In this document: in pieces, positions 10,898-42,123 of the stretch | How positions within the stretch are numbered: position 1 is the stretch's first letter | Layout of the letters: the number at the start of each line of letters is the position of its first letter | NCBI RefSeq assembly: GCF_013373795.3 | Contig: NZ_CP088022.1 | Location: 2,356,001-2,420,000, forward strand | Source: Bradyrhizobium quebecense | GTDB taxonomy: Bacteria > Pseudomonadota > Alphaproteobacteria > Rhizobiales > Xanthobacteraceae | DNA length: 64,000 bases | Direction of reading: 5' to 3' | Notes under the pieces: generated by a model | Told to the model about the DNA's origin: nothing | The model's input: the letters and a program-made list of their open reading frames with translations, nothing else | The model's database searches: none | Translations under genes and position numbers: made by a program

Positions 10898-12085
10898 ATG
10901 CGTGAAGCGACAGCGAGAGACCGTGTGAGCAGCCTTTTGACAGCGTCCGGCCGGAGCGATGTTCCACCGTTCATGGTGATGGACGTGATGGCCGCGGCGG
11001 CGCGAATCGAGGCCGCGGGCGGCCATGTCATCCACATGGAGGTGGGGCAGCCCGCCGAGGGTGCGCCGAAGCCGGCGGTCGCAGCCGCACAGGCCGCGCT
11101 TGGCGGCGGGCGGATCGACTACACCTCGGCGCTCGGCATTCCCAGTCTGCGCGCGCGCATCGCCCGGCACTACCGCGACACGTATAACTGTGCGGTCGAT
11201 GCTGAGCGCATCATCGTCACCACGGGCTCGTCGGGCGGGTTCATCCTGGCGTTTCTTGCGATGTTCGAGCCGGGCGACCGGGTCGCCGTCACCGTGCCGG
11301 GCTATCCGCCTTACCGGCACATCCTGACCGCGCTCGGCTGCGAGCCGGTGCTGATCGAGACCTCCGGCGACACCCGTCATGCGCTGACCGGGGAGGCGCT
11401 GCTGGCCGCCCATCGCAAGGCGCCGCTGAAGGGCGTGCTGGTCGGCAGCCCTGCGAATCCGACCGGCACGATGATGTCGCGCGAGGCGCTGTTGAACCTG
11501 ATGGCCGCCGCCGACAGCGCGGGCATCCGCTTCATCTCCGACGAGATCTATCACGGCCTCGACTACGCATTTCCTGCGGTGACGGCGGCGGAACTGTCGC
11601 CGAACGCGCTCGTGATCAACTCGTTCTCGAAGTACTTCTGCATGACCGGCTGGCGCGTCGGCTGGATGGTGGAGCCCGACGTGCTGGTGCGGCCGATCGA
11701 GCGGCTGCAGCAGAACCTGTCGATTTCGGTGCCGACCTTGTCGCAGATCGCCGCCGAGGCGGCCTTCGAGGGTCGCGAGGAGATGGAGGCGATCAAGCGC
11801 GGCTATCAGGAGAACCGCCGCATCCTGATCGAAGGCCTGCCCAAGGCCGGGCTGACCAAGTTCCTGCCGGCCGACGGCGCGTTCTATCTCTACGCCGACG
11901 TCTCCGACTTCACCGCCGACAGCTTCGCCTTCGCCAGCGAGATGCTCGAGAAGGCGCATGTCGCAGCGACCCCGGGCATCGATTTCGATCCGATCCACGG
12001 CCGCGCCTTCATCCGATTTTCCTATGCGCGTTCCGCGGCGGAGATGCAGGAAGCAGTTGCGCGGATCGCGCATTGGCTTAAATAG
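10898..12085 (+). CDS. PLP-dependent class I/II aminotransferase
   Basis: Transfers amino groups between an amino acid and a 2-oxo acid; the substrate cannot be read from sequence. The 395-residue protein has fold-type I landmarks: GQPAEGAPKPA, YTSALGIPSLRARIARHY, VTTGSSGGFILAF, SPANPTGTMMS, ISDEIYHGLDY and the cofactor lysine K245 in SFSKYFCMTGWRVGW. The C-terminal Arg for the carboxylate is in FIRFSYARS. ATG at 10898 and GTG at 10925 are both possible; GAGAG upstream of the GTG makes it a real alternative. Transcribed divergently from the M48 protease gene. Confidence 0.9.
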   Translation: MREATARDRVSSLLTASGRSDVPPFMVMDVMAAAARIEAAGGHVIHMEVGQPAEGAPKPAVAAAQAALGGGRIDYTSALGIPSLRARIARHYRDTYNCAVDAERIIVTTGSSGGFILAFLAMFEPGDRVAVTVPGYPPYRHILTALGCEPVLIETSGDTRHALTGEALLAAHRKAPLKGVLVGSPANPTGTMMSREALLNLMAAADSAGIRFISDEIYHGLDYAFPAVTAAELSPNALVINSFSKYFCMTGWRVGWMVEPDVLVRPIERLQQNLSISVPTLSQIAAEAAFEGREEMEAIKRGYQENRRILIEGLPKAGLTKFLPADGAFYLYADVSDFTADSFAFASEMLEKAHVAATPGIDFDPIHGRAFIRFSYARSAAEMQEAVARIAHWLK

Positions 12086-25378: not shown

Positions 25379-26314
25379 ATGCCTTCCGCCGACAACAGGA
25401 TCGATCGCCGCGACTGGGGGCTGCTCGGCTTTCTGTCGGTGCTGTGGGGCGGCTCGTTCTTCTTCAACGGCGTGATCCTGCGCGAATTGCCGCCGCTGAC
25501 CCTGGTGCTGCTGCGCGTTGTGCTCGGCGCGCTCATCCTGCTGCCGCTGCTGCGCGCCCGGAAGATCGAGTTCCCGCGTGGCCTTGCTGGTTGGGCGCCG
25601 TTCGCCGCGATGGGGCTGTTCAACAACGCGCTGCCGTTCTCGCTGATCGTGTTCGGGCAGACTTATATTTCGAGCGGGCTGGCCTCGATCCTCAATGCGA
25701 CGACGCCGCTGTTTGCGGTGGTCGTGATGGCGATGGCCGGCGAGGAGCGGCTGCAGGCGCGCCGCGTGGCGGGCGTGGTAGTCGGACTGATCGGGGTCGC
25801 GATCCTGCATGGTGATGCGCTCGGCTTCGAGAGCGGGCAGGGCATCGGCATCCTGCTGTGCCTCGCTGGCGCCTTCAGCTACGGCATCGCGGCGCTGGTC
25901 GGGCGGCGGCTGCCGCAGCGCGTGCCGCCGCTGGGCACGGCGACGTTCCAGATGATGGCCTCCAGCGTGATGATGGCGGTCGTCGCCGGTATGGCCGAGC
26001 GACCCTGGCTGCTGCCGATGCCGCATCTGACCACGTGGCTCGCCGTGCTCGGGCTCGCGGCGCTGTCGACGGCGCTGGCCTATATCGTGTTCTTTCAGAT
26101 CCTGCAGCGCTCCGGCGCGACCAATGTGATGCTGGTGACGCTGCTGCTTCCGGTCACCGCGATGCTGCTCGGCTTCTTCGTCCTCGGCGAGCCGGTCGCG
26201 CCGCGCGAGGTGATCGGCGCGCTCGTGATCGCCAGCGCACTGCTCTTGATCGACGGGCGCGTCTTGACCTGGTTCAGCCGCGCGCCTGTTTCCACGCCGC
26301 ATACCAGCCGGTGA
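25379..26314 (+). CDS. EamA-domain (DMT superfamily) transporter
   Basis: An inner-membrane exporter of metabolites, substrate unknown. Roughly 311 residues with ten predicted helices in two EamA repeats: the first starts LLGFLSVLWGGSFFFNGVILRELPPLTLVLLRVVLGALILLPLL, the second GIGILLCLAGAFSYGIAALVGRRLP. The second repeat ends VTLLLPVTAMLLGFFVLGEPVAPREVIGALVI, a classic DMT motif. ATG 25379 was preferred to an in-frame GTG at 25370. The 3' end overlaps the convergent carbamoyltransferase gene by 41 bases (26274-26314), so one stop lies inside the other gene. Confidence 0.9.
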   Translation: MPSADNRIDRRDWGLLGFLSVLWGGSFFFNGVILRELPPLTLVLLRVVLGALILLPLLRARKIEFPRGLAGWAPFAAMGLFNNALPFSLIVFGQTYISSGLASILNATTPLFAVVVMAMAGEERLQARRVAGVVVGLIGVAILHGDALGFESGQGIGILLCLAGAFSYGIAALVGRRLPQRVPPLGTATFQMMASSVMMAVVAGMAERPWLLPMPHLTTWLAVLGLAALSTALAYIVFFQILQRSGATNVMLVTLLLPVTAMLLGFFVLGEPVAPREVIGALVIASALLLIDGRVLTWFSRAPVSTPHTSR

Positions 26315-28427
26315 AGCGGCCGCTGTCGCGCTCGCCGCCGTGCCAGGCGGCAGAGGCGGTGCCGTCGTCGGCGACCAGCACCACGGCGTCGAGCCCCCTG
26401 GAGCGGCGCAGCGTGTCCATCGCCTGCGCCGGCGTCTGCGCGATCGGGCCCGCGACGTTGAACGACGTGTTGACCGACATCTCGACGCCGATATGGCGGC
26501 CGAGCGCCTTCAGGTAAGCGTAGGTGAGGGGATCGTCGGCCTCGCGCACGATCTGGATGCGGCCGGTGCCGTCGGCATGCACCACGGCGGGAATCTTCGC
26601 GCGTGCCTCCGGCTTCGAGTGCGCCGTGAGCACCATGTAGTTGTAGGCGTTGTAGTCGTCGTCGGACGCGCCGTCTTCCAGCTCGAAATAGTCGCGCGCG
26701 GCCTGCAGGGTCGCCATCGGCGCCAGCGGGCGGATCGCCTCGCGGTACTTGACGCGCTCGTTGAGCCGCTCGCGCACCTCGGGGTCGCAGGGGTTGGCGA
26801 GGATCGAGCGATGGCCGAGCGCGCGCGGGCCGGTTTCGGCCGCGCCCTGATAGATCGCGATCACGCCGCCTTGCGCCACCATGGAAGCCATCAGATCGGC
26901 GACCGCATCGCGCCCTTCTGATGTCGCGACATTGCCGATCTCGGTCGAGGCGACGTCGTCGGCGCGCAGCGCCGCGGCGATGTCGGCGTTCGAGGGCGGC
27001 AGGCCGCAATAGAAGGCGTGCGACAGCGGCGCACCGCGCGCGGCGCCCGCCATATGCGCGAACAGCCAGGCCGCGCCGATCGGCACGCCGGGATCGCCGG
27101 GCACCGGCGGCACCCACATATGCAGCCGCGTCTTGCGCTGCTGGGCGCGTTCGAACCAGGCCTCGTCAAAGTGCTCGAGCAGCCGCATGTTGCCGAGCGC
27201 GTTCAGCGCTACGCCGCCGGTCAGCACCAGGCGGTCGGTGCCGGTGATGCGCAGGAGATGATCGATGACATGGATCATCGCGTCCTCGAACACCAATTGC
27301 GTCGCGGCCGCCTTGTCGACGCGGTCCTTGGTGTCGGCGCGGTGATTGATGTCCTCGACGCGCAGCACGGCGTCGGGATTCCAGAGCTGGTCGGGCCGCA
27401 GCGGCTGGCCGAGAATATCGATCAGCGGCTGATGATAGGGATTATCGGCGGGGTCGGCGTACCAATTGGCCATCGCGCGATTGAGCTGCACGCTGCCATT
27501 GCGCCCGAGTTGCAGCACCGCCTTCAGGCGTTGATAGTAGGGATTGGTGGCGCGGTTCATGTCGCCCCAGGCGGCGGCGCCCATGTAGCGGCCCTCGCTG
27601 GAGAGCCAGGTCCAGCCGCCCTGGCTCGACGAGATCACGGTGTAGAAGGCGCCGAGCGAGTCGAACAGGCTCTCATTGCAATAGAGCCGCTTCATCTCGC
27701 CGTTCTCGGCGACATAGAGCGAAATCGAGCCGACGTCGCCGGTGCCGTCGAGCACCGCAATCGCGACACGCTCGCGCACACCGGCGAACGGCGATGCGGT
27801 GAACGAGTACCAGGCATGATTGTCATGATGCGGCATGCAGATCAGCGGCAGCTGTTCGCCAAGCCCGTACATCTTGCCGAGCCTGCGCGCGATGCGCCGC
27901 ACCTGGTCCATCTGGCGCAGGTTGATCGCCGGCGCGATCGGCGCGCGGAGCAATTTGATGCTGGCCGGCGCTTCCTCGAGCGAGGTGCGGATCAGCATCG
28001 CCATCAGCGCCGGATAATCCCAGGTGGTGACGAAGGCCGCGATGTCGCCGACGTCGCGGCCCATCCGTTGCAACACCTTGCGCATGTCTTCGAGCGCGTG
28101 TTGCGGAAACTCGTTGGTGTGTTTGTTTCCGGAAAAGCGCTCTTCCTCGTTGTTGACGATCAGGCGCGGTCCGTCCTTCTGGGTGACCTCGACCAGCGCG
28201 ACGCCGGTGTTGTGGGTGCCGGGGCAGGCGAGGCCGGCGATATAGACGGTCTCGCCGCGCTGCAGCTTCTCGCGGATCGAGGCGATCGTGCGCTGCGCGA
28301 ACTCGCCGTTGGCCTTGTGCAGGCCACGCTTCGCCAATGCACGTTCGCTGAGGCGGCGCGTGATCTCATAGCCCGCGGCCGCAATACGCGGATGCCGCGG
28401 ACCGGTACGAATGTCCGGTTTACGCAA
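26274..28427 (-). CDS. Carbamoyltransferase, NodU/CmcH/TobZ family
   Basis: Transfers a carbamoyl group from carbamoyl phosphate through a carbamoyladenylate to a hydroxyl of a sugar or other acceptor; NodU decorates Nod factors. The 717-residue protein has the two parts of the family. The Kae1/ASKHA-like domain shows PGTHNTGVALVE, EEERFSGNKHTNEFP, the metal-site CMPHHDNHAWYSF, AVLDGTGDVGS, EGRYMGAAAWGD and LVLTGGVALNALGN. The YrdC-like carbamoyltransferase domain shows ETGPRALGHRSILANP, KYREAIRPLAP and SVNTSFNVAGPI. It carries about 60 residues before the core. The nearby polysaccharide cluster suggests a surface-sugar acceptor; that is inference. Confidence 0.92.
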   Translation of the reverse strand: MRKPDIRTGPRHPRIAAAGYEITRRLSERALAKRGLHKANGEFAQRTIASIREKLQRGETVYIAGLACPGTHNTGVALVEVTQKDGPRLIVNNEEERFSGNKHTNEFPQHALEDMRKVLQRMGRDVGDIAAFVTTWDYPALMAMLIRTSLEEAPASIKLLRAPIAPAINLRQMDQVRRIARRLGKMYGLGEQLPLICMPHHDNHAWYSFTASPFAGVRERVAIAVLDGTGDVGSISLYVAENGEMKRLYCNESLFDSLGAFYTVISSSQGGWTWLSSEGRYMGAAAWGDMNRATNPYYQRLKAVLQLGRNGSVQLNRAMANWYADPADNPYHQPLIDILGQPLRPDQLWNPDAVLRVEDINHRADTKDRVDKAAATQLVFEDAMIHVIDHLLRITGTDRLVLTGGVALNALGNMRLLEHFDEAWFERAQQRKTRLHMWVPPVPGDPGVPIGAAWLFAHMAGAARGAPLSHAFYCGLPPSNADIAAALRADDVASTEIGNVATSEGRDAVADLMASMVAQGGVIAIYQGAAETGPRALGHRSILANPCDPEVRERLNERVKYREAIRPLAPMATLQAARDYFELEDGASDDDYNAYNYMVLTAHSKPEARAKIPAVVHADGTGRIQIVREADDPLTYAYLKALGRHIGVEMSVNTSFNVAGPIAQTPAQAMDTLRRSRGLDAVVLVADDGTASAAWHGGERDSGRFTGWYAAWKQARG

Positions 28428-30033: not shown

Positions 30034-31356
30034 CTACGTAATTCGTTTCAGCTCGCGTGCCGCTGCGGTGCCTGCCAGGAGCTTCTCCGGCCGGCGGGCG
30101 CGCAGCGCCATGCCGCCGGCGACGCCGACGCCGATCACGTACATCCAGCCCTCGTGAAAATCGGACAGATGCGAATTCAGCAGCGAGCTCGTGATGTTCT
30201 GCACGACGATGGCGAGCCCGATCCAGCTCACGAGATCGCGGCCGGCGAACAGCCTGACATGGCTGGTCCACATCGCGTACAGCAGCAGGACGCCGATGAG
30301 CCCCCACTGGATGGCGACATTGAGGGTCTGGTTGTGCGGGTTGTTGATCACCTCGGCGTCGAGGCCAGTTTGTCCGGCGGCATCCAGCATGAACAAGTGC
30401 TTGATCGCGCCGGTGCCGTGCCCGATTAGCGGCGCCTCGGTGATGAACTTCACCGACTTCCGCCAATAGGTCAGGCGCTGCGCGGTGGAGGCGATCCCGG
30501 ACGTATCGTGGGCGCGATACTCGATGCCGACGTCGGCGATGCGTTGACGCAGATAGGGTGACGTCGCCCACACCAGCAGGCTTGCCAGTGCGACAGCGGC
30601 GAACAGCAGCCGCGTGGCGCGGCGGGACAGATGCAGCGAGGCGAACAGGACCAGCAAGACCGGCATGGTGACCAGCGCGGTCCGCGCCGAGACAACGTAG
30701 AGCATGTTGACGATGAACAGCAGCATCAGCGCGATGGCGCCGGCTGCGATGCGCCATTGCCTGGCCCGCATCGCCGTCAACGCCGGCAGCGCCAGCGAGA
30801 AGGCACACAGCGTGAATTCCTGGCTCTGGTCGAGGTAGTTCTTGACCGGCACGCCGCCGGAGGCGGTGTGCGCAAGCTTGAGCTGCGGCAACGCCAGCAC
30901 GATCCAGGACAGGAACATCAGCAGCGTGCACGACACCAGGAAGGCGGCGAACACCCAGAGCCTGCGCTGCGAGCGCTGGAAATAGCTGAGCAGGAACGGC
31001 AGCAGCAGCAGCTTGCTGAGCGGCTTGATGCCTTGCAGCCGTTCGGCCCAACTCGTCTCAGACCACGCCAGGCCCATCAATGCGAGCGCGACCAGCGCGA
31101 TCGGCAGTGCAAAGGCCGGCTGTGCGAGGTCAAGAATGAACTGTTCCCAGTCGATGATCGGGATCACAGCGATAAGCCACAGCAGCATGAAGACGGCGAG
31201 CGCAGTGGTCGACCATGGCAGCGAGGCGGCGGCCAGTGCGATCAGAGCGTCGGTCGCGCGGACATAGGCGGCTGAGCCGGACCAGACACGGACGCGATCA
31301 CGCCACCGCGGTACGGGCTCGATGGTGACGTCGATCGCGTGGGAGTCGCTGGCCAT
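30034..31356 (-). CDS. O-antigen ligase/polymerase family membrane protein (Wzy_C)
   Basis: Likely joins a lipid-linked polysaccharide to an acceptor, or polymerises repeat units, on the outer face of the inner membrane. The 440-residue protein has 10-12 predicted helices. A large periplasmic loop (about 265-345) has the Wzy_C signature LIGHGTGAIKHLF and VINNPHNQTLNVAIQWGLIGVLLL. It is the last gene of the minus-strand polysaccharide cluster, 7 bases after the glycosyltransferase gene. Whether it acts on O-antigen or an exopolysaccharide cannot be decided. Confidence 0.88.
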   Translation of the reverse strand: MASDSHAIDVTIEPVPRWRDRVRVWSGSAAYVRATDALIALAAASLPWSTTALAVFMLLWLIAVIPIIDWEQFILDLAQPAFALPIALVALALMGLAWSETSWAERLQGIKPLSKLLLLPFLLSYFQRSQRRLWVFAAFLVSCTLLMFLSWIVLALPQLKLAHTASGGVPVKNYLDQSQEFTLCAFSLALPALTAMRARQWRIAAGAIALMLLFIVNMLYVVSARTALVTMPVLLVLFASLHLSRRATRLLFAAVALASLLVWATSPYLRQRIADVGIEYRAHDTSGIASTAQRLTYWRKSVKFITEAPLIGHGTGAIKHLFMLDAAGQTGLDAEVINNPHNQTLNVAIQWGLIGVLLLYAMWTSHVRLFAGRDLVSWIGLAIVVQNITSSLLNSHLSDFHEGWMYVIGVGVAGGMALRARRPEKLLAGTAAARELKRIT

Positions 31357-31363
31357 GACCGGG

Positions 31364-32776
31364 TTACACGGTGGCGCCGTTGAATGCGGCCATTGTGGCT
31401 GACGGCGTGGGCACGGAGGTCACGGTTTCCGTGGCGACCCGATGCGACAGCAGGTCGCGCGCCTGGGTGTGGTGGCCGAAGCGCTCGGCAAGCTCGGTCC
31501 GGCGCGCGCGGATCTTGTTCCGCCATTGCTCTTGCTCAGCCAGAACCCGGGTGACCGAGGCGCCGATGGACTCGATCGAGAACGGGTCGAAGTAATCGGC
31601 GAGTTCACCAGCAACTTCGCGGAACACGGCAATGTCGGAGCACAGCACCGGCGTGTTCGCGGCCAGCGCTTCGATGATCGGCACGCCGAAGCCTTCGGCG
31701 AGGCTCGGCATGATCAGGCCATGGGAATCGGCAGTGAGAGCGGCCTTCTCATGCTCCTCGACATAGCCGGAAAAGCGGACGTTGGACGGCGCATTGCGGG
31801 TCAGGCTGGGCGCTCCAGTATAGCCGATCACGACGAGGTCGGCCTGGGGCAGCTTGCGGAAGGCGCGGATGACCGCGGCGAGGTTCTTGCGCGGCTCGGC
31901 GGAGACGATCACGACGAAGTACGGTCGTCCGCTCGGCGCACCCACCGGCAGCGCCTGTGCATCGAACCTGGTGCGGGGATAGACCACCCGCGCCGGCAGA
32001 TGCGCGAACTGCGGAAGCAAAGCGCGGAACCGGCCGAGGCTGTAATGCGAGACGAAGGCGAGTTCATCGGCTTGCTGCAGGCTGGTGAATAGTCGGGACA
32101 GGAACAGCCGCGTTGCGACGTCGCTGAGCTTGAGGTCGGTCAGCGGCAACAGGTCATGCACGACGCAGATCACCTTGGCGCCGCGCTTGCGCTGGATCGC
32201 GACCCGCATCGGCGTGTCGACGAGGATGACGTCGTAGCCGCGCGCATCGACCCGCGGCGGCGGCAGCCGCAGCAGCGCCGAGGTGTCCTGATAGCTGTAG
32301 AAGCCGGGCTCGAGCAGGAAGTCGCCGAACAGCTTGAGATGGCGCAGGTCGGTCGGGATGTATTCGAGGCCGTCGGCATGGTTCTCGATCAGGCTGACGC
32401 CGGCCGGCAGCATATGGATCGCGCGCAGGAAGCTGACCGCGAATTCCGGCGAGGTCGCGGCGCGCAGCTTGCCGCGGAACCAGTCGACGGTGCGGCGCAG
32501 GCCGCCGCTGCTGCGCATCACAGGCGCATTCATGTCGGCCTCGTCGAGGAAACGATAGAGCGCGAGCAGCTCGATCAGTCGCGAACCGTCGGGCAGCAGC
32601 CTTGTGCGCTGCTGGCGCTGGCGCAGCTTGCGGTAGCGGCGCGTGGTCTCGACCAGCAAGGTCAGCTCATGACCGTCGCCGGCCAGCGAGCGGATCAGTT
32701 CACGCGTGAAATGGAAGATGCCGCGCTTGTGGTTGGGTTCGCCGAGCGCCTCGCTGACGACCAGGATCTTTGTCAT
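31364..32776 (-). CDS. Glycosyltransferase, GT4 type
   Basis: Adds a sugar during surface-polysaccharide assembly, on the cytoplasmic side. The 470-residue protein has a GT-B layout. The N-terminal domain begins MTKILVVSEALGEPNHKRGIFHFTRELIRSLAGDGHELTLLVE. An acceptor-side region of about 150 residues follows, with CVVHDLLPLTD and SHYSLGRF. The donor-side domain has VIVSAEPRKNLAAVIRAFRKL and the Glu-x7-Glu motif in SLAEGFGVPIIEALAANTPVLCSD. Its start overlaps the ABC ATPase stop as ATGA (32773-32776), indicating coupled translation. Confidence 0.9.
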   Translation of the reverse strand: MTKILVVSEALGEPNHKRGIFHFTRELIRSLAGDGHELTLLVETTRRYRKLRQRQQRTRLLPDGSRLIELLALYRFLDEADMNAPVMRSSGGLRRTVDWFRGKLRAATSPEFAVSFLRAIHMLPAGVSLIENHADGLEYIPTDLRHLKLFGDFLLEPGFYSYQDTSALLRLPPPRVDARGYDVILVDTPMRVAIQRKRGAKVICVVHDLLPLTDLKLSDVATRLFLSRLFTSLQQADELAFVSHYSLGRFRALLPQFAHLPARVVYPRTRFDAQALPVGAPSGRPYFVVIVSAEPRKNLAAVIRAFRKLPQADLVVIGYTGAPSLTRNAPSNVRFSGYVEEHEKAALTADSHGLIMPSLAEGFGVPIIEALAANTPVLCSDIAVFREVAGELADYFDPFSIESIGASVTRVLAEQEQWRNKIRARRTELAERFGHHTQARDLLSHRVATETVTSVPTPSATMAAFNGATV

Positions 32777-33513
32777 GCGGTTATTTCTCTAAGCTCGAGG
32801 TGATGCGGGACGGGCGGATCCAGCGCAACGGTGCTGGTGATGCGGCCGTGATCGAGATTGATGATGCGGTTGCAGGTTCGACGCAGCAGCCCCTGGTCGT
32901 GCGAGGCGATCACCACGATCGCCGCGGCCTCGACCATCTTGCGCAGCCGCTGCTCGGCCTTGGCCGAGAAATTCTCGTCGACCACGCTGAGCCATTCGTC
33001 GAGCAGCAGGATATCGGCGGGAAAGGCGGTCGCGGTCGCGAACAGCACGCGCATCAGCATACCCGACGAGAACATGCGCAGCGGCAGCCGCTGCATGCGT
33101 GCCTCGAGCTCTGTGAACGCCCAGATCTCGTCCAGGATCGCCGGCGTCGGCTTGCGGCCGGAGATCCGCAGCAGCAGGTTGATATTGTCGGCGGCGACGA
33201 AATCGAGATTGACGCCGGCACCGAGGCCAAGCAGCGGCACGATGTTGCCTGATATCTCGACCCGGCCGCTGGTTGCCGGGAACACGCCGGCGATCAGCCG
33301 CAGCAAAGTGGACTTGCCGGAGCCGTTCGGCCCGGCGAGGCCGATGCGGGCGCCGGCCTTTGCCTCGATCGAGATGTTGTCGATTGCGCGGATGGTGCGC
33401 ATCTCGCTGGTCTGGCGGAACAGGCGGCCGAGCAGGCGGCGCTTCAGCGAAAAGTCGTAGGCGCCGTACAGCGGATAATCGAGGCAGACGTCGCGGAGGT
33501 CGATGCTTGCCAT
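32773..33513 (-). CDS. ABC transporter ATPase for polysaccharide export (Wzt/KpsT-like)
   Basis: Powers export of a finished glycan across the inner membrane with a Wzm-type permease. The 246-residue protein has Walker A GPNGSGKST, the Wzt-type Q-loop region GNIVPLLGLGAGVNLDFVAADN, a signature of the KpsT/Wzt kind (RMFSSGMLMRVLFATA), Walker B DILLLDEWLSVVDENF and H-loop VIASHDQGLLRRTC. It lacks the C-terminal carbohydrate-binding domain of longer Wzt proteins, so export is probably not coupled to end-cap recognition. The permease is the C-terminal half of the fusion protein encoded immediately upstream (stop 4 bases away). Confidence 0.93.
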   Translation of the reverse strand: MASIDLRDVCLDYPLYGAYDFSLKRRLLGRLFRQTSEMRTIRAIDNISIEAKAGARIGLAGPNGSGKSTLLRLIAGVFPATSGRVEISGNIVPLLGLGAGVNLDFVAADNINLLLRISGRKPTPAILDEIWAFTELEARMQRLPLRMFSSGMLMRVLFATATAFPADILLLDEWLSVVDENFSAKAEQRLRKMVEAAAIVVIASHDQGLLRRTCNRIINLDHGRITSTVALDPPVPHHLELREITA

Positions 33514-33517
33514 GTTG

Positions 33518-35476
33518 CTAGATCCAGAATGCCGCTTTGCGCAATTGAGCGACCGTCACGGTCGCGGCGACCGCGAGCGCAGCAAGGCAGGCCAGCACGT
33601 AGACCACGCTCGGCATCGCGACATGGCCTGATGCCAGCGGGTCGCGCCAGACTGCGAACAGATGCGTCAGCGGATTGAGCCGCATCACCGTGGAGCCGCG
33701 ATCGATCATCTCAGGCGTCCAGATGATCGGCGAAGCCAGGAAGGCCAGCGTCAGCGAGGACTCGATGATCGGCTTGATGTCCCGGTAGCGCGTCGCCAGC
33801 GCGCCGAGCACGAGGCTGACGCCGAGCGTGCAGATGACGAACAGGGCGAGGCCGGGCAGGGCGGCGATGGCGCCGCCGACATCCCGCGGCGTCAGCACGA
33901 GCCACAGGACCAGCGGCACGACCGCGTTGTGAGCCGCGAACAGCGCCTGCCGGAAGGTACATTGCAGCAGGAAGATCACCGGCGGCAGCGCGCGATCCTT
34001 GATCAGGCTGGCCGAGCCCTGCAGCGCGGTGGTGGCGTCGAGCACGACGCTGTTGAGGAAGGTCCACGCGGTGAGGCTCGCCGCCAGCATCGGCAGCCGC
34101 GCCACCGCGCTGGCGTTGGAGAGATGGCCGATGACCGAGCCGAGCACGGCCACCATGATCGCCATCTGGATCGACATCCAGAAGGGTCCAAGGAGGGAGC
34201 GGACGTAGCGATGGCGGACGTCTGACCAGGCCAGCGCTGCCGCGATCTGGATCGCGCCGACGAGACCGGCCGTTCGGGGGCGCGGGGCTGGGGCTAGTGA
34301 CCCTGCGTCCTTTGCGGCTTGTTCGGTCACGACCTTGCGGTACACCGTCTCTACTCCCTCCTTGAAGGCTGTGGTTGAGTATTTCGTCATCGCACGATGG
34401 CGCGCGGCCTGGCCCATACGGCGCCGCCGCTCGGGATCGTTGATCAGCGTCTCGATGGCGTCGGCGAGGGCTGCGGGATCGCCGGGCGGCACGGTGATGG
34501 CCTCGAGGCCGTCGCGGGCGACATGCGGAACGCCGGTGTCGAGCGCGGTGTTGACGATCGGGCGGCTCGCCGCCATCGCCTCGAGTTGGGCCAGCCCGAA
34601 GGTCTCCGCATTGGTCACCGACGGCATCACGAAGACGTCGGCGATGCGCGTCAGCTTGACGCGTTCGCTCTCGGACACCGAGCCGAGCAGGCGGACGCGG
34701 TCCTGAAAGCCGTAGTCGCGGATCAGCTGTTCGAGATTGCCGCGCTCGCGGCCCTCGCCGACGATCCAGACCACGAAATTGCGGGCATGGGCGGCGCGCA
34801 CCAGCACGTCAAAACCCTTGTAGGGCACCAGCCGGCCGCAGGCGAGGACGAGGCGGCCGCGGGCGTTGACGTCGTCGGCCTGCGCGGCGGGCCGGTCATA
34901 CTTCTCGACATCGACGCCGAACGGAACGGCGTGGCACTTGTCCGCGAATTCCCGCAGCAGCGGCGTGGTTTTGATCAGCACCGGATCGGAGACGATGATC
35001 GCGGCGGCACGCCGCAAGGTTCGCCGCATCATCGGCTCGACCAGGAAACGCAAGGCTGCGTGCGAGACGATGTCGGCGTGCCAGTGCACCACCAGCGGAC
35101 GCGCGCGGCCGAGCCCGAACGCGAACACGAGGTCGGCGAGCGGGAAGGGCGCGTGCAGCGCCAGCAGATCGTGCGCGGCAATGCGGCGCCACAGCCGCCA
35201 CGGATAAGTCGGCGCCGCCGGCAGCGACAGCACGTCGCCGAACGAGTGCACACGCTCGACGGCAACGTCATTGACCACGATCTGCCGCTCGCCGCCGGAG
35301 CGCGAGCAGACCAGCACGGCGGCGTTGAAGGTGTCCTGCAGCGAGGCGCAGATGTCACGGATCACGGTCAGCGTGCCGCCGAACAGATCGGGGTAGTAGA
35401 CCTTGAAGATGTGGAGCACCGACGGACGCCGGGCCGGCGCGTTCAAACCAATCATGGGCGGCTCGATCCGGATCAT
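33518..35476 (-). CDS. Fusion of GT4 glycosyltransferase and Wzm-type ABC permease
   Basis: One 652-residue frame joins two functions normally made by separate genes. Residues 1-385 are a GT-B glycosyltransferase (HIFKVYYPDLFGGTLTVIRDIC, then LACGRLVPYKGFDVLVRAAH, VGEGRERGNLEQLI, and AETFGLAQLEAMAASRPIVNT). Residues 401-652 are an ABC-2 permease (ALAWSDVRHRYVRSLLGPFWMSIQMAIM, six predicted helices, IIWTPEMI, NPLTHLFAVWRDPL). A short Pro/Ala linker separates them. The ATG at 35476 overlaps the stop of the upstream membrane-peptide gene as ATGA, which decides the start over one 96 bases upstream; ATG 35455 is another option. The fusion could couple the last sugar addition to export. Confidence 0.88.
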   Translation of the reverse strand: MIRIEPPMIGLNAPARRPSVLHIFKVYYPDLFGGTLTVIRDICASLQDTFNAAVLVCSRSGGERQIVVNDVAVERVHSFGDVLSLPAAPTYPWRLWRRIAAHDLLALHAPFPLADLVFAFGLGRARPLVVHWHADIVSHAALRFLVEPMMRRTLRRAAAIIVSDPVLIKTTPLLREFADKCHAVPFGVDVEKYDRPAAQADDVNARGRLVLACGRLVPYKGFDVLVRAAHARNFVVWIVGEGRERGNLEQLIRDYGFQDRVRLLGSVSESERVKLTRIADVFVMPSVTNAETFGLAQLEAMAASRPIVNTALDTGVPHVARDGLEAITVPPGDPAALADAIETLINDPERRRRMGQAARHRAMTKYSTTAFKEGVETVYRKVVTEQAAKDAGSLAPAPRPRTAGLVGAIQIAAALAWSDVRHRYVRSLLGPFWMSIQMAIMVAVLGSVIGHLSNASAVARLPMLAASLTAWTFLNSVVLDATTALQGSASLIKDRALPPVIFLLQCTFRQALFAAHNAVVPLVLWLVLTPRDVGGAIAALPGLALFVICTLGVSLVLGALATRYRDIKPIIESSLTLAFLASPIIWTPEMIDRGSTVMRLNPLTHLFAVWRDPLASGHVAMPSVVYVLACLAALAVAATVTVAQLRKAAFWI

Positions 35477-35640
35477 GCGGCGAACAGGGCGACAACGAAC
35501 GGCAGCGCCAGCGCGGCGGCGAACACCAGCGAGCGCAGCAGCGCCGGAAACACCGGCTCGATCGGGCCACAAGGCGCCTGCGGCGTGAAACGGAGTGTAG
35601 TGGCGAACCGAACGGGTTCGCGCGACGAACGAAGAGGCAT
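35473..35640 (-). CDS. Small membrane protein, 55 codons
   Basis: A short frame starting ATG 35640 with AGGGA about ten bases before it. The peptide has a polar N-terminal half (MPLRSSREPVRFATTLRF...) and one C-terminal membrane helix (PALLRSLVFAAALALPFVVALFAA). Its stop is shared with the start of the fusion gene in ATGA, so it looks like the translated first cistron of the export operon. It may be a subunit, an anchor or only a coupling leader. I know no family. Coding is supported by the start signal, the overlap and the helix, not by homology. Confidence 0.6.
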   Translation of the reverse strand: MPLRSSREPVRFATTLRFTPQAPCGPIEPVFPALLRSLVFAAALALPFVVALFAA

Positions 35641-35675
35641 TGCGTCGGATTCCCTGCTGAATGGATATTGGATAC

Positions 35676-35731
35676 GTGGGAAAATTTCACACGTCAATGG
35701 CGTCGGACCAAAATGTGGGATTATGTCCCAC
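35676..35731. promoter_or_regulatory. Compound operator, copy A, before the polysaccharide operon
   Basis: Two elements 39 bases apart: GTGGGAAAATTTCAC followed by ACGTCAA, and the perfect palindrome GTGGGA-TTATG-TCCCAC at 35715. The same pair recurs at 36364-36422. It lies 36 bases upstream of the small membrane gene, where a promoter is expected. The protein that binds is not known; the small gene just upstream is my candidate. Confidence 0.65.
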
Positions 35732-35835
35732 GTGTGGCGGGGGACAACTTTTTTGGCAGGAGGCATCGGAGCGCATGGCGGCGGGATCGCGCCGCGACGG
35801 CGCAAGGCGAGTAAGTCTGCAGCGCTGGCGGGGTG

Positions 35836-36270
35836 TCAGGCCGGCTCGGCCGTGCTGCCGGCCGTCGATGGCTGCAACTGGCGCCTGATGGCGGGGATGT
35901 CGAAATGGATCCACTCGGGCAGCATCGCGGCTGCGGGCCGCTGCAGATCCTGCTCGATGACGACGCGCTTGCCGCCATCCGATGTCAGCGCGATCGAGAC
36001 CGAGTTCGCCCGTGGCTCGGCGGTGAGGCCGGCATGCGCGCGGCTGGCATATTCGCCGGCGCGCAGGCCGCCGAAGCCGAAGGCGAGCAGGCGGCCATAG
36101 ATGTACAGCGCCAGCAGATCAGTTTCGCCGAAGCGGCGCGGCGAGCCGGGCACCACGCCCGGCAGGCAGGGATAGCCGCCTGCCATCACCGTCGACACGA
36201 ACTCCTCGTAGGGAACCTGGGCGATCCGGCAGGCTTCCGCGATCACAAGGTCGAATCGGGCAGGCGTCAT
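35836..36270 (-). CDS. Small unknown protein, candidate DNA-binding regulator
   Basis: A soluble 144-residue protein of no recognised family. ATG 36270 (MTPARFDLVIAEACRIAQVPYEEFV) was chosen over one 45 bases upstream. The middle, FGETDLLALYIYGRLLAFGFGGLRAGEYASRAHAGL (residues about 48-82), reads as two helices with a tight glycine turn and a third helix, which could be a MerR- or phage-like helix-turn-helix; this is inference. The C-terminal half is beta-like. The gene lies between the two copies of the compound operator and is transcribed toward the polysaccharide operon, so it may control both itself and that operon. Confidence 0.65.
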   Translation of the reverse strand: MTPARFDLVIAEACRIAQVPYEEFVSTVMAGGYPCLPGVVPGSPRRFGETDLLALYIYGRLLAFGFGGLRAGEYASRAHAGLTAEPRANSVSIALTSDGGKRVVIEQDLQRPAAAMLPEWIHFDIPAIRRQLQPSTAGSTAEPA

Positions 36271-36354
36271 GGAACGGTCCGTGGCGATGGCGGCAGTGCC
36301 TCCGCACCCCGACACTCACGCCGGCAAGCGCGTCGTGTCCGGATGTGATTTTAT

Positions 36355-36422
36355 TTCCCATAAGTGGGAAAATGTCACACGTCAAGCGGGGGGTGGGGCA
36401 AAACGGTGGGATTGTGTCCCAC
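36355..36422. promoter_or_regulatory. Compound operator, copy B, between divergent genes
   Basis: Contains TTCCCA-TAAG-TGGGAA (36355-36370), GTGGGAAAATGTCAC with ACGTCAA (36364-36385) and the perfect palindrome GTGGGA-TTGTG-TCCCAC (36406-36422). Elements are 42 bases apart, against 39 in copy A. It sits between the candidate regulator gene (minus strand) and the DUF6502 gene, whose ATG is 25 bases to the right. Confidence 0.65.
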
Positions 36423-36446
36423 GCAGCGGACGGCTAAAAGTTAGGC

Positions 36447-37322
36447 ATGAATGCCAAGCCCCCGAAGCCGAAGCCGGGATCGTCTGCGCCGATCGCCGCC
36501 GCGAAGCTGCACGCGCCGCTGGCGCGGATGCTGCGCCCGCTGGTGCGGCTTTGCGTCCGCGGCGGCATGACATTTCCGGCGCTGACCCAGCTGTTGCGCG
36601 AGCTCTATGTCAACGTCGCCGAGCACGACTTCGCGCTCGAGGGCAAGGAGCAGACCGATAGCCGCGTCAGCCTCTTGACCGGCATCCACCGCAAGGAGGT
36701 CGCCCGGCTGCGCGGCGCGGGCGCGCCGGTCAATGCGGTGCCGGCGACGCTGTCGCGCACCAGCGCGATCATCGCGCGCTGGCTGGCGGCGCCCGAATTT
36801 ACCGACGCCAAGGGCGATCCGCTGCCGTTGCCGCGCACCGCCGATGGCGGCGCGCCGTCGTTCGAGACCCTGGTCGAATCGATCACCAAGGACGTGCGGC
36901 CGCGCGCCGTGCTCGACGAATGGCTCGACCGCAAGCTCGTCACCATCAATGACGACGACGAGATCATGCTGGTCGAGGAGGCCTTCGTCCCACATGGCGA
37001 CGACGATCGTAAATGGCATTATCTCGGGCGTAACCTGCACGACCATGTCGCGGCCGCCGAGATGAACGTGTCGTCGGCGACACCGCGCTTCCTTGAACGC
37101 GCGGTACATTACGACGGGCTGTCGGCCAAGCTGGCAAAACGACTCGAGGGCCGCTCGCGCGAGCTCGCGATGGAGGCGCTGAAGGTCGCCAACCGCGAGG
37201 CCAATCGCGCCTTGGCCAAGGACAAGGGCGGCGACTACCGCTGGAATTTCGGCATCTACATCTATCGCGAGGGCCCCGACGGTCCGGTCGATGATGATGC
37301 CGACGAAGGCGGTGCGTCGTGA
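36447..37322 (+). CDS. DUF6502 family protein
   Basis: Function unknown. The 291-residue soluble protein has the family opening LARMLRPLVRLCVRGGMTFPALTQLLRELYVNVAEHDF, which resembles a winged-helix fold, followed by SLLTGIHRKEVARLR, typical of the family and HTH-like. The C-terminal part (GRNLHDHVAAAEMNV, FLERAVHYDGLS, GNF-type end) is helical. The tail is acidic (DDDADEGG). A weak AGG precedes the ATG. Its stop overlaps the GTG of the DUF5666 gene as GTGA, so the two are translated together. DUF6502 is often beside DUF5666 genes, which supports a joint role. A palindrome 25 bases before the ATG suggests repression. Confidence 0.85.
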   Translation: MNAKPPKPKPGSSAPIAAAKLHAPLARMLRPLVRLCVRGGMTFPALTQLLRELYVNVAEHDFALEGKEQTDSRVSLLTGIHRKEVARLRGAGAPVNAVPATLSRTSAIIARWLAAPEFTDAKGDPLPLPRTADGGAPSFETLVESITKDVRPRAVLDEWLDRKLVTINDDDEIMLVEEAFVPHGDDDRKWHYLGRNLHDHVAAAEMNVSSATPRFLERAVHYDGLSAKLAKRLEGRSRELAMEALKVANREANRALAKDKGGDYRWNFGIYIYREGPDGPVDDDADEGGAS

Positions 37323-38563
37323 AAAGTCCGCCCGTCATTTCCCGCCGCGCGCTGCTGATCGGCTTCTGGCTCGGTGGAACCTCGCTCGCGGGCGCGCAGG
37401 TCAAGAAGCGCGGCAACGATCAGGGTATCGGCGGCACCGGGATCACTGGCTCCGACCAGGGCATCGGTGGCACCGGCATTGTCGGCGTGATCCAGCGGTT
37501 CGGCTCGATCTACGTCAACGGCGAGCGCGTCGCCTATGCGGCCGATGTGGCGGTCCGGATCGACGGCGAGGCGGCGAACGCCAAAGCGCTGCGGATCGGC
37601 CAGCTCGCGCGCGTGGTGGCAGAGCGCGATGCCGGCGGCACGCTGTCGACCAGGCGCATCGACGTGGCGAGCGAAGTGACAGGGCCGGTCGAGCAGGTGA
37701 AATCGGGCGAGCTGACGGTGCTCGGCCAGAAGGTCGCGTGGAGCGGCCGCGAGAGCTGGCTGAAGGTCGGCGCGCATGTCGCCGTGTTCGGGCTGCGCCG
37801 CACCGATGGCGTCGTCGTCGCAAGCCTGGTGCAGGAGCGCCATGACGCTGCGATGCGCGTCGCAGGACCACTCGAGCGCGACCGCAACGGAGCGTTCCGG
37901 ATCGGCGAGCTCAAGCTCAGCGGCGTCGATGCGGCTTTGGTCGGTCAGCGCGTGCAGGCGGAAGGGCATGTCGCGCAGGGCGTGATGCAGGTCTCGCGCA
38001 GCCGCGCCGATGACTTCTCCGATCTCACCGGCGCCAAGCGGCTCTTGATCGAGGCCTATGTGCGGCGGGTCGGCAATGACCTGCAGCTCGGCTCCGGCTT
38101 CGTCGCGCGCGACCACTCGCGCTTTTGGCCGGCCGCCGATACGCGCGTGGTCGTCAACGCGCAGCTGTCGGGGACGCGCGAGCTGCGGGTCGAGTCGGTG
38201 CAATCGGTCACTAGATTTCCGGGCTCGTCGGTGAGGAGCCCCGGCACGCCGGGCCGCGGCTCCGGCGGCGGTGGCTCCGGGCCGGGACATGGATCCGGAC
38301 TGGGCGGGCGCGGTGCGCCTGGTGGCGGCGGCCCCGGCGGCAGCCCTGGTGGGCCGTCTGGTGCGCCCGGCGGCGGGCCGCCAGGTGGTGCCGGTCCTGC
38401 GCCCGATCCCCTGAACGGCGGAACGACCGGCCCCGGTCCGGGCGGCGTCGGCTCGCCCGGCGGGCCATTCGGCCCCGGTGGCGGTGGTGGTCCGTTCGGG
38501 CCCGGCGGCGGATTCGGTGGTGGCGGGCCGCCCGGCGGCATGGGCGGCGGCGGCCGCCGCTGA
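37319..38563 (+). CDS. DUF5666 secreted protein with Gly/Pro-rich tail
   Basis: Function unknown. The 414-residue protein starts with GTG overlapping the DUF6502 stop. An N-terminal hydrophobic segment after two Arg (SRRALLIGFWLGGTSLAGAQ) fits a Tat-type signal. Two copies of DQGIGGTG-like sequence (about 35-60) lead into DUF5666 beta-barrel repeats (GVIQRFGSIYVNGERVAYAADV and related at about 57-300). The last 110 residues are almost only Gly, Pro, Ser and Ala with occasional Phe. The export signal and beta repeats point to a periplasmic or surface role. Confidence 0.85.
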   Translation: MKSPPVISRRALLIGFWLGGTSLAGAQVKKRGNDQGIGGTGITGSDQGIGGTGIVGVIQRFGSIYVNGERVAYAADVAVRIDGEAANAKALRIGQLARVVAERDAGGTLSTRRIDVASEVTGPVEQVKSGELTVLGQKVAWSGRESWLKVGAHVAVFGLRRTDGVVVASLVQERHDAAMRVAGPLERDRNGAFRIGELKLSGVDAALVGQRVQAEGHVAQGVMQVSRSRADDFSDLTGAKRLLIEAYVRRVGNDLQLGSGFVARDHSRFWPAADTRVVVNAQLSGTRELRVESVQSVTRFPGSSVRSPGTPGRGSGGGGSGPGHGSGLGGRGAPGGGGPGGSPGGPSGAPGGGPPGGAGPAPDPLNGGTTGPGPGGVGSPGGPFGPGGGGGPFGPGGGFGGGGPPGGMGGGGRR

Positions 38564-38602: not shown

Positions 38603-38632
38603 GATGTTCAGATCAATCGTTGCGAGATTGAG

Positions 38633-38682
38633 CTAGCCCGCGCTGAGCCGGACGCCGGCGCGGAGGAATTTCTGCGGATCGA
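38633..38682. repeat. Left copy of a 50-bp direct repeat (duplicated 3' end of the M23 peptidase gene)
   Basis: Matches 39940-39989 in 49 of 50 positions, same orientation; the only difference is C at 38648 against T at 39955. It encodes the last codons and TAG stop of the M23 peptidase. Together the two copies bracket 1257 bases holding the IS fragment and the immunity gene, like an attachment-site or insertion duplication. Confidence 0.9.
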
Positions 38683-39088
38683 GAGCCGGATCGGGAGGCC
38701 GTGAGCGTCGACGACGACGTGGATCTTGGTCGTGAGCCCGCCGCGTGATCGACCGAGACAATGATCTGCACCTCCTTTTGCCATTGCAGCCTGCTGATGG
38801 GCACGAACGGAGGTGCTGATCATCTGGATGTTACCACTATGCGCGGCGCTGATGGACGCTATCAGTCGGTCCCATACGCCGGCCTTCCGCCATCGCACAA
38901 TGCGGTTGTAACAGATGGTACGCGGTCCATAGCGTTCTGGTAGGTCGCGTCATGGTGTTCCCGATCGAAGCACCAAAAATGCCGTTCAGCACGCGCCGAT
39001 CATCGACGTGGGGCGCGCCTCTCGGCTTGTTGGGCAGCAGCGGCGTGATCACGCGCCATTCGAAGTCGGTCAGATCATATCGGCTCAT
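38683..39088 (-). pseudogene. IS5-family transposase remnant, truncated and frameshifted
   Basis: The N-terminal segment MSRYDLTDFEWRVITPLLPNKPRGAPHVDDRRVLNGIF is the usual opening of short IS5-group orfA products. The frame is then lost near 38960. A second frame carries RWRKAGVWDRLIASISAAHSGNIQMISTSVRAHQQAAMAKGG and DHCLGRSRGGLTTKIHVVVDAHGLPIRL, the matching central part with the first catalytic Asp region altered. The C-terminus with the remaining catalytic residues is missing, because the left direct repeat begins there. It cannot make a working transposase. Confidence 0.85.
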
Positions 39089-39265: not shown

Positions 39266-39820
39266 TCAATCTGGCTTTTGGTCCGGCAGGGAAAGGCCGG
39301 CCTGAAGGTCACGGATTATGATGCCTAGTTGGCCTGAGGCGAGGAGCCCTGGCCCTAAGGGACCCGAACGGTCTTCGCCTACACGTGGAAGCGCTCGCAG
39401 TGCAGTCCGCACCTCCGCTTTCATATGCATGAGCTGCCAGCGAACCTCGTCATCGGCGGCTCGTGGCCGGTCGGGAGACGCTAAGCTGGCGGCTTTAACG
39501 GCATACGCTGCGGCGCCCAAGGCGTGTGCACCCATGTGGCAAACGGCGGCAGCTTGACCCGCAGCTCTGGCGGCGGCTGCGGCTGCGGGAGACTTCACCT
39601 CTTTAGCAGCGCCGCCGCCCATAAACCGTTGGCGAATTTCTACGGCGGTGTCCAACTCCCCGCGGGAGTACGCTCGGGTCCGGGCGATAGCAGCGCGAGG
39701 GCGACCGTCAGTCGGCCTTTCAGCTTCAAAAATCCGCAGAACTCGTTCAGCACAGTCGGCGGCCCATGCAGCGACAAGTCGCCGGTCGGATTCGCTCAAT
39801 GCCTGCGAAGATTTCGCCAT
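39266..39820 (-). CDS. Putative immunity protein, Imm5-like
   Basis: Probably protects against a polymorphic or contact-dependent toxin. The 184-residue helical protein shows the features I know from Imm5-like proteins: WAADCAERVLRIFEAERPTDGRPRAAIARTRAYSRGELDTAVEIRQ, a run of alanines (AAAAARAAGQAAAVCHMGAHALGAAAYAVKAASLA), and a C-terminal helix near the end. No toxin gene or secretion system is adjacent, so it would be an orphan immunity gene. It is inside the 50-bp direct repeats and next to an IS remnant, both signs of acquisition. The start at 39820 has a weak GAG upstream. Confidence 0.75.
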   Translation of the reverse strand: MAKSSQALSESDRRLVAAWAADCAERVLRIFEAERPTDGRPRAAIARTRAYSRGELDTAVEIRQRFMGGGAAKEVKSPAAAAAARAAGQAAAVCHMGAHALGAAAYAVKAASLASPDRPRAADDEVRWQLMHMKAEVRTALRALPRVGEDRSGPLGPGLLASGQLGIIIRDLQAGLSLPDQKPD

Positions 39821-41388: not shown

Positions 41389-42123
41389 TCAGAGCGATCG
41401 GGCGGCCTCCAATACCGCTTCGGCATGGCCGTCGACCTTCACATGACGCCAGATCCGCGCGACTTTTCCACTGGAATCGACCAGAACCGTGGTGCGAATA
41501 ATTCCCATGAAGGTCCTGCCATACATGGATTTTTCGCCCCAGGCGCCATACGCCTCCAGCATCTGATGAGCCGGGTCCGAGACCAGCGGCAACGACAGCT
41601 GGTGTTTGTCTCGAAATGACTCCTGCGCCTTAACCGTATCGGCGGAAATGCCGACCACCTCGGCACCTGAAGCCACGAACTCATTCTTGAGCCGCGTGAA
41701 GTCGATCGCCTCCCTGGTGCAGCCGGGGGTGTCGGCGCGGGGATAGAAGAACAGCACCAGCTTCTTGCCGGCAAAATCCCTCAGTGAAACGCTGCCTCCG
41801 CCGTCGCGCGGCAGGTCAAACGCTGGTGCCGCGGCGCCCTCAGCGAGTGTGACGGAGGACGACCTGGTCACGGTCGCGGCCGGCGCAGGCTTTAACGGTT
41901 TCGATGCGGCCTTGTGCGAGGCTTTGCCTTGAACACCCGTTGCGGTCTTGGTGGTGGTCTTGGCCTTCGCCTTTGTTGCTTTCTTGGCCGCGGCCTTCTT
42001 CGCAACCGTTGTGCGGGTTTTCGTCGCGGACTTCCCAGTGCTTGCGCCTGCGGCGCGCGCAACCTTTGTTGCGACCCGCTTTCCGGTTGTGTTGGAGGAT
42101 TTCTTGCGCGTTTTCTTGGACAT
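41389..42123 (-). CDS. Bcp/PrxQ-type peroxiredoxin with histone-like lysine-rich N-terminus
   Basis: Reduces peroxides with thioredoxin as donor. The start at ATG 42123 follows a strong AAGGAAGG site. Of 244 residues, the first 90 are nearly all Lys, Ala, Thr and Ser in KKA/KTT/AKK repeats, resembling histone H1 or AlgP tails. The Prx domain begins at about 91 (VTLAEGAAAPAFDLPRDGGGSVSLRDFAGKKLVLFFYP), with the peroxidatic C135 in DTPGCTREA. The second Cys common five residues later in Bcp is absent (here Asp), so it is a 1-Cys form. It lies 99 bases before the M23 gene on the same strand. The tail might bind DNA or RNA. Confidence 0.92.
   Translation of the reverse strand: MSKKTRKKSSNTTGKRVATKVARAAGASTGKSATKTRTTVAKKAAAKKATKAKAKTTTKTATGVQGKASHKAASKPLKPAPAATVTRSSSVTLAEGAAAPAFDLPRDGGGSVSLRDFAGKKLVLFFYPRADTPGCTREAIDFTRLKNEFVASGAEVVGISADTVKAQESFRDKHQLSLPLVSDPAHQMLEAYGAWGEKSMYGRTFMGIIRTTVLVDSSGKVARIWRHVKVDGHAEAVLEAARSL

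Follow-up and report, generated by a model that had tools for sequence, protein, structure and literature searches.

Our study analysed a window of 64,000 nucleotides from Bradyrhizobium quebecense (contig NZ_CP088022.1, positions 2,356,001 to 2,420,000), in which two copies (A and B) of a two-part DNA element frame a gene for a 144-residue protein (P0001). Copy A precedes a polysaccharide (glycan) export operon, and copy B precedes a gene of the DUF6502 family. An original prediction, made from the sequence of this window, had assigned the elements to the 144-residue protein. We consider it very probable that the DUF6502 protein is a DNA-binding transcription regulator whose operator is GTGGGA-N5-TCCCAC (in general form, GGG-N7-CCC), and that it acts as an autorepressor that also represses the divergent glycan-export operon. 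The observations behind this proposal are the sites themselves, their rarity, their strict co-occurrence with DUF6502, a conserved promoter-like geometry and the covariation between the operator and a predicted helix of the protein.

Both two-part elements were confirmed by direct reading of the sequence. In each copy, part one is an imperfect palindrome (operator 1) with the motif ACGTCAA, which ends at 35697 in copy A and 36385 in copy B, and part two is the exact palindrome GTGGGA-N5-TCCCAC (operator 2). The parts are spaced by 39 bases in copy A and 42 in copy B, and the copies lie 688 and 691 bases apart in identical orientation, in agreement with the distance of 690 given originally; the neighbours are also those first described, namely a 55-residue open reading frame (ORF) with a glycosyltransferase/ABC operon, the 144-residue ORF, DUF6502 and DUF5666. 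The exact palindrome occurs only twice in the whole 9,172,345-base genome, both times within the window, and a reversed control pattern does not occur at all. Because a looser pattern with two mismatches shows no excess (212 matches versus 434 for its control), it is the exact sites that carry weight. Within the window, five matches with up to two mismatches were counted versus a mean of 2.56 in shuffled sequences, an excess that is weak when taken alone, since 8 of 100 shuffles reach five. A weak operator-like match, GTGCGAATAATTCCCAT at 41492-41508 on the plus strand, has a similar position in several Bradyrhizobium loci; it sits within an AhpC/TSA ORF, and its recurrence may therefore reflect coding conservation.

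Special attention was given to the distribution of the palindrome in 265 Bradyrhizobium genomes. We identified it in 119 of them, DUF6502 in 108 and the 144-residue protein in 28, all of which also have DUF6502. The palindrome is present in every one of the 108 genomes with DUF6502 versus 11 of the 157 without it, and a reading of the upstream sequences, which included 19 genomes with two palindromes, places it directly upstream of the gene in 108 of 108. Each DUF6502 locus contains exactly one GTGGGATTGTNTCCCAC, and the site has the form GTGGGATTGT(G/A/C)TCCCAC, with G in 92 genomes, A in 15 and C in one. In 106 of these genomes operator 1 agrees with the palindrome at 11 of 12 bases, and TTGACG accompanies it in 102. 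Of the six genomes lacking TTGACG, five (G282, G317, G406, G441 and G443) belong to a set of 18 with DUF6502 in which a search covering 257 of the 265 genomes gave no match to the glycosyltransferase/ABC-2 permease fusion (GT-ABC) of the glycan operon; in two of the five, G317 and G406, no homologue of P0001, GT-ABC, the ABC protein, the glycosyltransferase or DUF5666 was found in the fetched 12 kb. Among the 11 genomes with a palindrome and no DUF6502, the six with a listed site have other N5 sequences, and the N5 of G287, where no gene of the locus lies within 2 kb, resembles that of copy A. DUF6502 matches fall in two pieces in G203, G282 and G443, where the gene may be broken in the genomes or in their assemblies.

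Beyond the genus, the operator accompanies DUF6502 in other families and, less completely, in other classes. First, in a motif-first search, exact sites were present in 18 genomes of a 198-genome sample of the taxonomic family, and the set examined comprised 17 exact sites of other genomes fetched as loci, together with the second site of G095. Both sites with TTGTG or TTGTA as N5 directly precede DUF6502 (in G105, of the same genus, and in G095, of another genus, where DUF6502 is 80% identical, GT-ABC lies divergently (67%) and DUF5666 lies downstream); none of the 16 sites with another N5 in this family sample has DUF6502 within 1.5 kb. Second, we examined 80 named loci, which are the best of at least 580 confirmed stretches and therefore lean towards close relatives: 46 are counted as Bradyrhizobium (including one that carries the label Frankia), and 34 belong to Methylobacterium, Bosea, Kaistia, Methylocapsa, Lichenibacterium and others. 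A core site lies within 400 bp upstream of DUF6502 in all 80. Third, order and phylum searches gave 38 distant loci from other families and classes (two from G536 and four from G954; L127, which belongs to the genus itself, and L135, which scores under the cut-off of the family, were left out). A core site with at least 9 of 10 bases lies within 300 bp upstream in 26 of these 38, versus two occurrences in 129,550 other bases. It is absent from the other 12 (L131, L133, L137, L138, L139, L142, L146-L150 and L153), among which L137 and L139 have a relative with a 6-nucleotide spacing, L131 has ATGGG/CCCAT palindromes, and L146-L150 and L153 have neither. Across 15 genomes handled individually, the exact sites number from 0 to 4 per genome, with at least one in 11 of the 12 with DUF6502 and in none of the three without it.

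These distributions bear directly on the possibility that the elements belong to the 144-residue protein and that it is itself the autoregulator. Its gene lies between the two copies, its structural model is MerR-like, and the second control region occurs only where its closer homologues are found. However, when the question raised by the original prediction, whether such palindromes always adjoin homologues of this gene, was put to the 265 genomes, the protein was absent from 91 of the 119 bearing the palindrome, including 80 of the 108 with both operator and DUF6502, a result of the kind that the original prediction had named as refuting it. In addition, no homologue was found in the non-Bradyrhizobium named loci, although all of them have operators. 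We therefore regard ownership by this protein as highly improbable, and what survives of the original prediction are the proposals of a local autoregulated switch tied to glycan export and of a helix-turn-helix in the 144-residue protein.

The operator also varies together with the DUF6502 protein itself. The AlphaFold 2 model of this protein places a putative helix-turn-helix at residues 71-88, whose predicted recognition region reads TGIHRK in most proteins with a GTGGG operator. We compared residue 80 with the operator in 56 loci (three from the genus, the 38 distant loci and, out of the 34 named loci outside Bradyrhizobium, 15). GTGGG is present in 30 of the 31 Ile80 loci versus none of the six Leu80 loci that have a GGG/CCC palindrome (Fisher p 3e-6); the sole Ile80 exception, L124, has GCGGG, Leu80 proteins are accompanied by A or T as the outer base, and Val80 loci have mixed operators. 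Three Ile80 loci (L129, L142 and L153) and seven Leu80 loci have no such palindrome and were not counted. Because the Leu80 proteins are related to one another, this covariation is suggestive, and not independent proof, that residue 80 is a specificity residue setting the outer operator base. It also bears on whether a regulator encoded elsewhere might bind the palindromes and control both DUF6502 and the glycan operon, since co-occurrence alone cannot separate a bound regulator from a regulated gene. That explanation has to accommodate a genome with only two exact sites and an outer base that changes with DUF6502's own predicted recognition helix, and we consider it very unlikely.

Two features that had escaped the original prediction concern the promoters. 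The plus-strand ACGTCAA gives a -35 box (TTGACG) when read on the other strand; in copy B, the N5 of part two belongs to the predicted -35 box of DUF6502. On the minus strand, part one thus reads as TTGACG, 17 nucleotides and TATCCA (copy A) or TATGGG (copy B), with operator 1 occupying the 17-nucleotide spacer; we predict that each part one is a sigma-70-like promoter with an operator inside it, aimed at the glycan operon in copy A and at the 144-residue gene in copy B, where TATGGG is a poor fit to the -10 consensus. On the plus strand, the predicted DUF6502 -35 box, TTGTGT, is formed by the N5 of copy B and the T that follows it, and by sequence the palindromic site overlaps the predicted DUF6502 promoter in 108 of 108 genus genomes. 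The DUF6502 ATG at 36447 lies 7 nucleotides beyond the end of the -10 hexamer TAAAAG; consequently, the transcript from this predicted promoter is probably leaderless. In 72 named loci with a site of this kind, the pattern TA---T occurs in 13 loci at a spacer of 16 nucleotides and in 35 loci at 17, and at no other spacer from 10 to 29. In copy A the N5 is TTATG, with no plus-strand gene beyond, and all 19 of the fetched GT-ABC loci that bear such a copy (L321-L339) lack the TTGT form. This geometry could be read in another way, in which DUF6502 binds the same operators and activates the glycan operon: seen from that operon, operator 2 is located upstream of the -35 box, a position open to an activator. 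However, operator 1 falls between the -35 and -10 boxes of a promoter with a normal 17-nucleotide spacer in 102 of the 108 genomes, the usual position of a repressor, which makes activation unlikely.

Our preferred reading, repression by DUF6502, is proposed because of the position of the operators alone. In the simpler arrangement a single intergenic region contains two operators. Operator 1 occupies the spacer of the predicted TTGACG promoter from which the divergent glycan-export operon is read, and operator 2 overlaps the predicted -35 box of DUF6502 itself. We infer that bound DUF6502 would block RNA polymerase at both promoters, repressing itself and the glycan operon, until some signal released it and lifted the repression. 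In one Bradyrhizobium lineage, the small MerR-like gene would have come to head the glycan operon as an added target, and in a sub-lineage that includes this window, copy A would have become a second control region from which the glycan operon is driven separately.

In loci without the 144-residue gene, the GT-ABC, ABC, glycosyltransferase and ligase-like genes are usually directly divergent from DUF6502 with one common control region. Eight genomes with P0001 homologues of 56-61% identity have one palindrome, and in the four of them with a GT-ABC match, the 144-residue gene ends 40-65 nucleotides before that match. The closer lineage (at least 63% identity) has the second copy of the element ahead of the glycan operon: the equivalent of copy A operator 2 lies 157-255 nucleotides before the GT-ABC match in 19 of 30 GT-ABC loci fetched, and these 19 are the ones that have the closer P0001. 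The helix-turn-helix originally suspected in this protein is tentatively supported by its AlphaFold 2 model, which is nearest to CvkR, described as a MerR-type repressor of type V-K CRISPR-associated transposons (PMC9938897); the identity to CvkR is 18%, and no search for CRISPR or transposon partners was made for the 144-residue protein. Its match is in two pieces in G258, where the gene may be broken in the genome or assembly, and a perfect 15-nucleotide inverted repeat has one arm inside the gene (35960-35974) and the other upstream of it (36322-36336). Since this protein looks similar to MerR-type DNA-binding proteins and the same operators govern its gene in our reading, a two-layered control could be envisaged, with DUF6502 ancestral and P0001 also binding the region, or antagonising DUF6502, to tune the glycan operon in one lineage. 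MerR activators usually work on spacers of 19-20 nucleotides, however, and the spacer here is 17. We find this possibility rather improbable.

Table 1. Operators, predicted promoters and genes at the two elements and their surroundings (window positions).
Feature	Position	Strand	Description
Copy A operator 1	35676-35692	strandless	GTGGGAAAATTTCACAC; direct sequence reading, GT-ABC locus comparison
Copy A operator 2	35715-35731	strandless	GTGGGATTATGTCCCAC; direct sequence reading
Copy B operator 1	36364-36380	strandless	GTGGGAAAATGTCACAC; 11/12 palindrome bases
Copy B operator 2	36406-36422	strandless	GTGGGATTGTGTCCCAC; direct sequence reading
Predicted glycan-operon promoter	35669..35697	-	-35 TTGACG 35692-35697, 17 nt, -10 TATCCA 35669-35674
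Predicted 144-aa gene promoter	36357..36385	-	-35 TTGACG 36380-36385, 17 nt, -10 TATGGG 36357-36362
Predicted DUF6502 promoter	36412..36440	+	-35 TTGTGT 36412-36417, 17 nt, -10 TAAAAG 36435-36440
DUF6502 gene, 291 aa	36447..37322	+	PF20112, E 4.8e-30; proposed DNA-binding autoregulator
DUF5666 gene	37319..38563	+	PF18914, E 6.5e-8; overlaps DUF6502 end
144-aa gene (P0001)	35836..36270	-	Proposed target, not owner of operators
55-aa small hydrophobic ORF, first of operon	35473..35640	-	Sequence; no Pfam match
Glycosyltransferase fused to ABC-2 permease (GT-ABC)	33518..35572	-	PF00534, PF01061; TTG start, in-frame ATG 35455
ABC transporter ATP-binding protein	32773..33513	-	Nearest NCBIfam model galactan export Wzt, below cut-off
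Glycosyltransferase group 1	31364..32776	-	Pfam profile match
O-antigen ligase / Wzy_C family protein	30034..31356	-	PF04932

In the genus, a search that covered 257 of the 265 genomes found a GT-ABC match in 90, all of them with DUF6502. Most Methylobacterium loci have no homologue of the glycan genes and a different divergent gene, which shows that control of glycan export is not a universal feature. Two Bosea loci (L221 and L226) have operator pairs both before DUF6502 and ahead of an ABC-2 export gene at a distance of more than 4 kb; in L221 (about 11601-11645) the gene on the other side of this pair resembles, by eye, a sugar-phosphate nucleotidyltransferase. G620, Methylobacterium-type by likeness and sharing its genus with G662 and G713, has a second site 17 nucleotides before a gene for a small serine-rich protein (L303). 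In four genomes of one genus (G669, G548, G578 and G719; L315-L318), another exact site, at a great distance from DUF6502, lies close to genes resembling sugar-transport permeases or dehydrogenases, which are possible further targets. ORF calls in GC-rich loci are partly in the wrong frame, and only genes with recognisable products were used. Near the glycan operon of the window, a carbamoyltransferase gene (26274-28427, minus strand) might serve in glycan modification.

A DUF5666 homologue lies downstream in 75 of the 80 named loci (L222 is cut by a contig end), and of 10 distant loci that were selected from 28 listed and scanned, 9 have a PF18914 match. By eye, the N-terminus of the protein looks like an export signal, and one may speculate that it is a candidate sensor or effector. 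Downstream of it, 38608-38898 (minus strand) matches the IS5-family transposase model NF033580 at 66.9 bits, below the cut-off of 110, and is likely an insertion-sequence remnant; an ORF at 39266-39820 (minus strand) matches an Imm-5-like putative immunity protein (PF21805, E 1.1e-34).

The DUF6502 protein matches PF20112 over residues 22-274 with 104.8 bits against a cut-off of 27; the only other Pfam match is to RIMB1_N, below its cut-off, and NCBIfam gives none at E 0.01. The family includes 3956 proteins at E of at most 0.001 among 7997 candidates scored. No paper in the open-access library searched mentions DUF6502, although papers elsewhere or using only locus tags would escape this search; searches with IPR045445 returned no paper, and motif and topic searches returned nothing relevant. 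For a family with thousands of members and no assigned function, our proposal would offer a first function and a DNA site that can be tested directly, a motif usable for finding its target genes, and a tie to glycan-export control in Bradyrhizobium and some relatives. A broader and distinctly tentative possibility is that DUF6502 is a widespread Pseudomonadota regulator family with a readable operator code (GGG-N7-CCC, with the outer base set by residue 80), forming with the probably exported DUF5666 an envelope-sensing module that adjusts surface polysaccharide export.

Autorepressing one-component helix-turn-helix regulators with a divergent target operon are well represented by TetR, DeoR, GntR and similar families, and an autorepressed regulator is in itself of a familiar kind. 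DUF6502 differs from these in that neither Pfam nor NCBIfam matches it to a named family of regulators. What is new is the proposed role of the family as regulators, its operator and its predicted specificity residue: the gene adjoining copy B belongs to PF20112, a family with no assigned function, for which we propose here both an operator and a regulatory role.
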